Positions 12,622-15,494 of a stretch of 64,000 nt of DNA are shown here, piece after piece (position 1 is the first letter of the stretch; each line of letters opens with the position of its first letter). Both the position numbers and the translations under genes were made by a program. Under the pieces are notes generated by a model. It worked only from the letters and a program-made list of their open reading frames with translations, did not search any database and was not told the DNA's origin. Origin of the DNA: Spiroplasma sp. SV19 (GTDB lineage: Bacteria; Bacillota_I; Bacilli_A; Mycoplasmatales; Mycoplasmataceae); the NCBI RefSeq assembly GCF_030060925.1, contig NZ_CP045455.1:248001-312000 (forward strand), given 5' to 3'.

Positions 12622-13092
12622 ATGAATGAAGAAATTTTATTGACCAAAGAGGGAATTAAGGATTTACAAGAAGAATTAGATAATTTAATTAACGTGGTTC
12701 GACCAGAAGTTATTGAAGAATTAAAAGAAGCCCGTGCACAAGGGGACTTATCAGAAAATGCTGATTATGATGCAGCACGTAATCGCCAAGCTGAAGTTGA
12801 AGGGCGAATTAAAGAAATTGAATCATTATTAACAAAAGCAAAAGAAATTAAAGAAGTAAAATCAAAAACAGGAATTATTAAATTAGGAAGTAAAGTTATG
12901 TTCACTAATTTATTAATTAATAAAAATTTTGAAATTAAAATTGTGGGTGCTGTTGAAGCAAATCCATTTGAAAATACAATTTCAAATGAATCACCCATTG
13001 CTAAAGCTATTATTGGCCAAAAAGTAGGTGATTTGGTTGAAATTAAGGGTATCCAAGTTCCTTATAAGGTTAAAATTATAACTGTGGAGTAA
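12622..13092 (+). CDS. greA: Transcription elongation factor GreA
   Basis: Stimulates transcript cleavage by backtracked RNA polymerase. 156 aa, normal length. The N-terminal coiled coil carries the acidic tip segment GDLSENADYDAARNRQ, and the C-terminal FKBP-like domain ends with VGDLVEIKG. AGAGAGGAATG lies upstream. The likely -10 (TATAAT, 12573-12578) overlaps the right arm of an ACCTTAA/TTAAGGT inverted repeat (12548-12573), which may terminate udk transcripts or bind a regulator. Confidence 0.95.
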   Translation: MNEEILLTKEGIKDLQEELDNLINVVRPEVIEELKEARAQGDLSENADYDAARNRQAEVEGRIKEIESLLTKAKEIKEVKSKTGIIKLGSKVMFTNLLINKNFEIKIVGAVEANPFENTISNESPIAKAIIGQKVGDLVEIKGIQVPYKVKIITVE

Positions 13093-13106
13093 AATATAAT
13101 TATAGA

Positions 13107-13143
13107 GTAATTATTTAATTACTTTTTTTTTTTTTTTTTTTTT
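13107..13143 (+). terminator. greA terminator with a 21-T run
   Basis: GTAATTA (13107-13113), a two-base loop and TAATTAC (13116-13122) are followed by 21 consecutive T (13123-13143). The hairpin makes this a terminator. The tract is as long as the homopolymers found before lipoprotein genes elsewhere in the window, but no conserved -10 region follows it. Confidence 0.7.
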
Positions 13144-13192
13144 CAAGGAATTATTGCAACAAGCGGTTAAGTATTAATAAGGAGGAAACCAA

Positions 13193-13459
13193 ATGACAAA
13201 ATTAACGATAAAACAAACTAAGCAACTATCTGGTGGTAAAGTTTCTGGTGCCTTTTTAACAGGTATTGCTGCAATTATTAATGCTTGTAGCAATTCATTA
13301 ACAAATTTAATTTCAACTGGTTTTTCAACTTATTTTGCAACGCAACAAATGAATCGTACCGAAGGGGGTTATAAGACCACAAATGGAGCTCATCTAACTT
13401 GATCAGATAAACATAATAATTTGAATCATCCTAATTATGCTCAAGTCTTGTTTGTATAA
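13193..13459 (+). CDS. Double-glycine leader peptide 1 (bacteriocin-like)
   Basis: 88 aa, preceded by a strong AAGGAGG. The N-terminus MTKLTIKQTKQLSGG has the spacing of double-glycine leaders: hydrophobic residues at -12 and -4, Gly-Gly at -2 and -1. Cleavage would leave a peptide starting KVSGAFLTGIAAIINA that is small-residue-rich and amphipathic, with a polar C-terminal half. TGA codes for Trp near residue 70. The next gene has a nearly identical leader 6 nt downstream, as in two-peptide class II bacteriocins. No C39-peptidase transporter or immunity gene is in the window. Function is inferred. Confidence 0.6.
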
Positions 13460-13465
13460 TTTTTG

Positions 13466-13690
13466 ATGAAATTATTAACAATAAAACAACAAAAAGAAGT
13501 AATAGGTGGAGCTGCTTGAATTATTGGGGCGTTGGTAGTAATTAGTTTTTTTGATATTGTTAAAATTAGTTTAGATAGTTATCAGATTAATCAGCATTCA
13601 ACTCAATCCAAACAAAACGAAATCATTACGACAGGTGAGCAAGCAGAGAATGCAAGCTTACTGCAGCAATGTGATATTTTATATGTTTAG
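13466..13690 (+). CDS. Double-glycine leader peptide 2 (bacteriocin-like)
   Basis: 74 aa, 6 nt after the previous stop and without its own strong ribosome site, so translation is likely coupled. The leader MKLLTIKQQKEVIGG aligns with peptide 1 without gaps (LTIKQ, GG). The predicted mature peptide begins AAWIIGALVVISFFD, a hydrophobic membrane-active type segment, then a polar Gln/Asn/Ser-rich tail with one Cys near the end. A TGA (Trp) just after the GG hides this gene from standard-code searches. A bacteriocin or signalling peptide is likely; no partner genes are visible. Confidence 0.55.
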
Positions 13691-13955: not shown

Positions 13956-15494
13956 ATGATCGGTGTTATTTCAACGGCATATTTTACAATGAAAGATAAG
14001 CACAGTATCAAAACAGTAAAAAAATATTGATGAAAAAACTGTGTTATCCAACATGTTAAGTACCATGGAAAAACTTTCATTATCGCAACAGTAGGTTATG
14101 GTAAAGCAAATGCTGCAATGGCTATTACTTACTTATTAGAAAAATATCCAGGTTTACAAACAATTTTAAACATAGATTTAGCCTTGTCGACAAATGACAA
14201 ACATGATACAGGAGATACAACAATTTCAACAAAATTTATTTATCGTGATGCAGACTTAACAGTTTTCAAAGATATTAAATATGGACAAATTGTTAATGAA
14301 CCAGAATCATTCCAATTCGATGGCGAATTTGCTAAAGTTGTTAAAGACTTTAAATTGGGATTAACTGAAGGAGTTACTGGAACAGCAGATATGTTGATTT
14401 ATAACTCAAAACAATTTAAGGAAATGGTTGACAAATATGGTCACACAATTGATGTTATTGATACTGAAGCTGGGGCAATTGCTCAAGTTGCTAAAAAATC
14501 AAGCATTAATTATATTGCTTTAAAAATTATTTACAATAATGCATTATCACCATGAGATAATGATCCAATTCATAAATTCAAAATGTATGAAACAGTAAAT
14601 ACTTTAAAATACTTATTAAGAAGATTATTTAACTTATTAAGTTCAAATTACATTATTGATTTATCACAATCATCACAAGATGATTTAGATTCAATTAATG
14701 AATTATTTGAAATCAAACATGACCAATGAGTTAAATTATTTAAGCCAAATACTCATAAAGTATTATCAGGATTTGGACCTTCATTAATGTTAGTTGATAA
14801 ACAAGAAAGAACTCCTGTCGCATTAGATATCATTCAAGTAATGAGATCAAAAACGAAGGAAAACGAAGGACCAAGTAAAGTAATTTTAGGAGAAGATGAA
14901 TGAAAAAATGCTCCTAAAAAATGATTACGTAAATTATTATTCTTAGAACAAGTTCGTGTTAACGATGATGAATTATTATGAAATAAATCAGCAAAATATG
15001 ATTTAAATAATGAAAAATTATATAAAATTGAAACAGTTGCTAATGAAATTGCAGCAGCTATTGCAGAAAAATGTCAAGATAAATCATCATATACATACAA
15101 TGGTGCAACAGTACCAGAAAAATACTTATTGGTAAATTGTGATGCTAGAATTTCATTTTACATTACACATAACCAATCACATGAATTTGTTGAAGATACA
15201 AAATTTGGTGCACACTTAGTAAGCAATGAATTTATTAAGTATTTAAATGAAGCATTAAAAGATGTTGATTCACCATATCAACAAATTGTAGTTTACATGA
15301 CAATCCCAGCTTTAGACTATCGTAAAATTCCAGTGTTTATTCCTTCAAATAAAGGAGCAAATAGAGGTGTTAAATTTGGAAACTTAAACCAAAAATTACA
15401 AAAAGATTATACAGTTGTGGATATTACAAGAAACGATTATGATCCAATTAAAGTTGGTTCATTCAAAGTTACAGTTCGTTTAAGAAGTGAATAA
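13956..15494 (+). CDS. fib: Fibril protein Fib
   Basis: Cytoskeletal ribbon protein unique to spiroplasmas, forming the internal flat ribbon linked to helical shape. 512 aa, like the known S. citri protein of about 515 aa. I recognise it from the N-terminus MIGVISTAYFTMKDKHSIKT onward. The N-terminal half has the fold of methylthioadenosine/S-adenosylhomocysteine nucleosidase (ATVGYGKANAA, then DTEAGAIAQVA). The C-terminal half (LSGFGPSLMLVDK, VPEKYLLVNCDARISFYI) is Fib-specific. It is monocistronic between a good promoter and a strong terminator. Six or more TGA codons are Trp. Confidence 0.97.

Follow-up and report, generated by a model that had tools for sequence, protein, structure and literature searches.

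The 64,000-nucleotide stretch of the Spiroplasma sp. SV19 chromosome analysed here (NZ_CP045455.1, positions 248,001 to 312,000; hereafter the window) carries two adjacent open reading frames (ORFs), which we call pep1 and pep2, in the interval between greA and fib. Both lie on the forward strand, start with ATG and are read with genetic code 4: pep1 (13193..13459, stop included) encodes 88 amino acids (aa) and pep2 (13466..13690, stop included) encodes 74 aa. As the initial annotation of this DNA had described, each product begins with a 15-residue leader ending in a double glycine (GG), and the two leaders align without gaps. In pep1 the leader MTKLTIKQTKQLSGG (13193..13237) runs directly into KVSGAFLTGIAAII, the start of a mature part of 73 aa (13238..13456) that begins with KVSGAF and whose alignments show a hydrophobic segment rich in small residues and a polar tail with the motif YKxxNGxxLTWSDK. 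In pep2 the leader MKLLTIKQQKEVIGG (13466..13510), which matches the leader profile described below, precedes a mature part of 59 aa (13511..13687) with a strongly hydrophobic start, AAWIIGALVVISFF, opening with AAWIIG, and a variable polar tail. One TGA codon, read as tryptophan, is present in each gene, and the standard code truncates both; the need for this reading had been noted for pep2 alone, but Trp70 of pep1 (13400-13402) is a TGA as well. A Shine-Dalgarno sequence, AGGAGG, precedes pep1 (13180..13185, forward strand), whereas pep2 has no ribosome-binding site and begins 6 bases past the pep1 stop codon. Because the same short gap is found in two relatives, G002 and G003 (the latter with a broken pep2), and pep2 lacks a ribosome-binding site, the arrangement suggests that translation of the two genes is coupled. 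Single-sequence AlphaFold2 models contain low-confidence helices (mean pLDDT 60 for pep1, with a helix at residues 19-57, and 66 for pep2), and they were left out of fold searches. A match of pep2 to SURF1 (E 0.007) was dismissed as chance.

Homologues of pep1 (E < 1e-6) occur in 51 of the 60 genomes of its taxonomic family, often near greA and/or rplU-rpmA. Judged by sequence comparison, they make up an unnamed family that is core to this group and vertically inherited, with a conserved leader, a mature start of the form SGAxLxGI and a short tail around YKxGxxxxxWDD. When close relatives are compared in pairs, the ratio of nonsynonymous to synonymous substitution rates (dN/dS) over the mature part is mostly about 0.1-0.3, which points to purifying selection. 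The distribution of pep2 is narrower: homologues were found in G010, G002, G012 and G004, and damaged copies in G003 and G009. Thus, pep2 is seen in part of the genus only, a single peptide being seen elsewhere in the taxonomic family.

The pattern of leucine at position -12, glutamate or glutamine at -8 and isoleucine, valine or leucine at -4 is that of class II bacteriocin leaders. Among 47 relatives of pep1, the conserved leader positions are -15, -12, -8, -4, -2 and -1. Where the exporter is intact, 42 peptides were scored: the last leader residue is glycine in every one, the residue before it is glycine in 33 and alanine in 9, and the dominant residues are leucine at -12, glutamate or glutamine at -8 and isoleucine, valine or leucine at -4. 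Position -12 is hydrophobic in 39 of 39 leaders and -4 in 90%. These leaders have the form expected of double-glycine leader peptides, about 15 residues that end in GG, GA or AG and are hydrophobic at both -4 and -12; position-shuffled leaders reached at most 24-25 of 45, against observed values of 45 and 40. The initial annotation had called for a genome-wide search for further leaders, and a generic leader profile run over the 1.46-Mb genome of the strain found two places only, pep1 and pep2, a count that comes from a profile search rather than an enumeration, with both leaders in the training set. Eight of the 47 relatives have ATT, ATA or ATC as their -15 codon, in most cases behind a correctly spaced Shine-Dalgarno sequence: G014 (L154), G024 (L164), G072 (L191), G105 (L151), G131 (L179), G154 (L184), G158 (L192) and G159 (L193). 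These are probably non-standard start codons, and annotation would miss or shorten such genes.

No exporter with a C39 peptidase domain is encoded within the window, in agreement with the initial annotation, which had proposed looking for one in the rest of the genome. There, the Peptidase_C39 model matched C1:102299-102709 strongly (E 7e-29), on the same chromosome and 157 kb from the peptide genes, so that a GG-peptidase, whose absence was to have counted against the peptides, is in fact present. The match lies in a gene (G000:C1:102221-104353, equivalent to L003:10222-12354) for an ATP-binding cassette (ABC) exporter with C39, ABC membrane and ABC ATPase domains. Its product is 710 aa long from the listed TTG, or about 686 aa from the ATG that relatives use, and displays the motifs QEQSDDCGYAC, HYVV, ADP, GRSGSGKT, LSKGQ and LIDE; the gene reads as intact. 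Among proteins of solved structure, the exporter is closest to a bacteriocin transporter (4ry2 group) and to ComA. Downstream lie a gene for a 126-aa protein with one transmembrane segment and then a gene that we take, from its sequence, to be ybeY. This order is shared by most relatives read, including a genome of 580,076 bp whose C39 coordinates match those given for MG_390 of Mycoplasma genitalium. The small protein (L003:12341-12721) overlaps the end of the exporter gene and has no Pfam match. Several genera, and the 580,076-bp genome as well, have similar proteins encoded behind the exporter gene, but G014, G015, G017 and G021 do not; these proteins could be exporter partners or immunity proteins. 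A second C39-like protein of the strain (L002:1465-2391, near C1:424453; 308 aa) has a Peptidase_C39-like domain and a membrane segment at its N-terminus; as it has no ABC domains, it was rejected as the exporter. C39 matches of the same extent occur in G010, and other additional C39 matches in G012 and G166.

Peptide and exporter are inherited together. Of the taxonomic family's 60 genomes, 50 have a C39 domain if the broken genes of G002, G012 and G083 are included, and pep1 is found in 49 of these 50, as opposed to 2 of the 10 genomes without C39 (G003 and G020). The one apparent exception, G053, was set aside, as its sequence reads N from 504001 to 544001 and rplU was not found either; pep1 is therefore present in 49 of 49 informative genomes with C39 and in 2 of 10 without (Fisher 2e-8, kinship ignored). 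A tree of greA suggests more than one exporter loss within the genus, and other losses fall in different genera, on several branches. In G003, which has no C39 domain, the pep1 leader ends in GV and the pep2 leader is interrupted by a stop codon. In G009, on another branch and likewise without C39, pep1 is gone and the pep2 leader ends in RG, compared with GG in its neighbour G004. In G083, a member of another genus, the exporter gene is full of stop codons and the peptide leader ends in EV, compared with GG in sister genomes. Overall, GG is damaged in three of five exporter-less genomes and in none of 42 with an intact exporter (Fisher 6e-4). Comparison of these three lineages indicates that the cleavage dipeptide decays once the exporter is lost.

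Peptide profiles were run in pep1's taxonomic family and in a sister family, while the presence of C39 domains was surveyed in the order at large (131 of 148 sampled genomes). The sister family was examined because residues 1-64 of pep1 weakly match the NCBIfam MPN313 family (NF045747; E 0.002); at 18.4 bits, with a cut-off of 100 bits, pep1 is not itself a member. MPN313-family proteins of the 580,076-bp genome and its relatives have 15-residue leaders ending in GG or AG, and a profile made from them matches, in some cases weakly, 31 of the 39 sister-family genomes that have C39 (E <= 0.01). In a further taxonomic family we noticed small ORFs whose first residues resemble a leader and end in VG (G152, L070) or GG (G132, L072), which suggest that this type of peptide extends to more mollicutes.

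Because the genome holds an intact exporter, the peptides are co-inherited with it and the double glycine decays when it is lost, we consider it very probable that pep1 and pep2 are secreted-peptide precursors and substrates of the C39 exporter, this estimate applying to the export step. The C39 domain would cut both precursors after Gly15, and the ABC core would move the mature peptides through the single membrane of the wall-less cell; once outside, their hydrophobic helices would rest at or in a membrane with the polar tails exposed. Under this scheme pep1, the product of a core, vertically inherited gene, would be served by an unlinked exporter from the ybeY neighbourhood; MPN313-family proteins would play the same part in the sister family, including the 580,076-bp genome; and pep2, seen only in part of the genus, would be a second such peptide. 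More generally, the peptide family is probably the cargo of the mycoplasma C39 exporter. Several observations weigh against such an assignment. Peptides and exporter are unlinked in every locus read; 8 of the 39 C39-bearing sister-family genomes have no peptide match at E 0.01, and in one of that family, G104, the leader ends in VG although C39 is present. Nine of the 42 leaders from genomes with an intact exporter end in AG instead of GG. Conversely, G002, with an exporter pseudogene, and G020, without C39, keep GG.

The genes that flank the peptides are greA (12622..13092, forward strand; NF001263 / TIGR01462), a conserved upstream neighbour, and fib (13956..15494, forward strand; NCBIfam NF033570, 1028 bits), encoding the fibril cytoskeleton protein. 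The latter is a neighbour in this genus and probably no part of the peptide system; in other genera rplU-rpmA replaces it at or near the same place. An AT-rich inverted repeat followed by a run of about 21 T lies between greA and pep1 (13106..13143, forward strand) and is a possible terminator. The T run itself (13123-13143) could be either a terminator tail or a length-variable tract. A terminator scan scored neither this element nor any other, and a promoter scan gave a result no better than shuffled sequences. G012 and G003 have extra genes between greA and pep1 (L113:1698-3526 and L111:2588-3323), one of them for a long protein with coiled-coil-like repeats.

What the peptides do outside the cell is a separate matter. 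The initial annotation had seen in them the plan of either a two-peptide class II (class IIb) bacteriocin or a peptide pheromone, and while their nature as double-glycine export peptides is borne out, neither of these roles was established. As a class IIb bacteriocin, exported pep1 and pep2 would pair in the membrane of rival mollicutes and cause leakage, with immunity perhaps conferred by the small membrane protein encoded next to the exporter. The window, like part of the genus, does hold two adjacent hydrophobic GG peptides, an A/S-xxx-G helix motif lies near the start of mature pep1, and a few pep1 relatives weakly match models for lactococcin G-beta, cerein 7B and bacteriocin leaders (E 0.006-0.009); taken over all bacteriocin family models, weak matches of a few relatives span E 0.006-0.05, and pep1 and pep2 themselves match none of these models. 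Nevertheless, only greA and fib flank the pair, with no recognised immunity gene beside it, although such a gene could be unrecognised or distant; the exporter is not linked; a single peptide is the rule outside part of the genus; and the loci and their sequences are conserved, fixed in position and vertically inherited rather than strain-variable. Moreover, the small membrane protein is missing from several genera that have both peptide and exporter. Given the weak matches of the relatives, we regard a bacteriocin of this kind as possible, though less likely than not. Less likely still is a pheromone, a peptide that would accumulate outside and be sensed by kin in the manner of streptococcal ComC. 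The GG leader and an exporter closest to ComA and bacteriocin exporters would suit such a role, but the mature part of pep1, at 73 aa, is conserved across whole genera, and neither the peptide genes nor the exporter gene showed a sensor or regulator next to it, the genome as a whole not having been searched for sensor kinases.

Two other explanations were weighed. The C39 protein might have a different job, such as the lipoyl-lysine import proposed for gene 0401 of JCVI-syn3A (PMC6609329), leaving the peptides as small membrane proteins whose GG is no cleavage site. The retention of GG in the exporter-less G002 and G020 fits this idea, which is nonetheless improbable given co-inheritance, the complete pattern of the leaders and the decay of GG in three lineages without an exporter. 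Chance ORFs might be expected in DNA so rich in A and T that 41 ORFs of at least 30 aa overlap a 4.5-kb stretch around the locus; conservation across 51 of 60 genomes refutes this, the ribosome-binding site and a mature part with dN/dS well below 1 also speak against it, and we give it practically no weight. Since inheritance is vertical, selection purifying and no immunity gene recognised, we favor a conserved core secreted peptide over a bacteriocin. Its role could be an outward-facing one for the producer, as a surface, host-directed or community-directed peptide, a suggestion we make tentatively while judging it somewhat likelier than a classical bacteriocin. Just as provisionally, one could picture most Mollicutes as sharing a single core system, vertically inherited and with a non-killing role, in which a C39 exporter at ybeY-era secretes an unlinked GG peptide, kept even in a 580-kb genome; the peptides would then be the substrates that these exporters have been reported to lack.

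Those reports concern the minimal cell JCVI-syn3A, which retains one C39 transporter. Its 2019 model, published in eLife, reports that no double-glycine candidate was found for protein 0401, the C39 transporter, just as an earlier screen had found none in other mycoplasmas, and tentatively gives this protein a role in lipoyl-lysine import (PMC6609329). Our literature searches found no report of GG peptides from Spiroplasma or mycoplasmas. Possible reasons for their having been overlooked are that the genes are short, lie far from the exporter, in some cases use code 4 and, in 8 of 47 relatives, have ATT, ATA or ATC at -15. Now that there is a peptide family with the right leader that is co-inherited with the exporter, the question of the substrate can be put to a direct test, and, if the proposal is true, secreted peptides are among the core features of some of the smallest cells.

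Comparison with known systems helps to place the peptides. The uncharacterised MPN313 family (NF045747) shares with pep1 the 15-residue GG leader, a hydrophobic mature start and a polar tail, but has a conserved tryptophan after GG and an RxSxxP-like tail that are absent from pep1, and its annotation mentions neither export nor function. Class IIb bacteriocins (lactococcin G-beta, lactobin A/cerein 7B) are alike in their GG leader residues and short hydrophobic mature peptides; the system described here differs in showing no immunity gene at the locus, in its unlinked exporter, in having usually one peptide and in being a vertically inherited core locus. The exporter has the C39-membrane-ATPase order of bacteriocin and pheromone exporters (4ry2 group, ComA), with which it aligns over its residues 26-691, yet its gene neighbours are those of the ybeY-era region, and the genes for its presumed substrates lie far away. 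Protein 0401 of JCVI-syn3A is likewise the C39 transporter of a related mollicute, linked to ours by family only, and differs in that its publication names no GG substrate and models it as an importer of lipoyl-lysine (PMC6609329). A parallel in kind is offered by EbfG1-4 of Synechococcus elongatus, small GG-motif proteins whose secretion is aided by the C39-type transporter PteB and whose role lies in biofilm, not killing (PMC4997328), although that organism is a cyanobacterium with a two-membrane envelope and the likeness drawn here is one of description.
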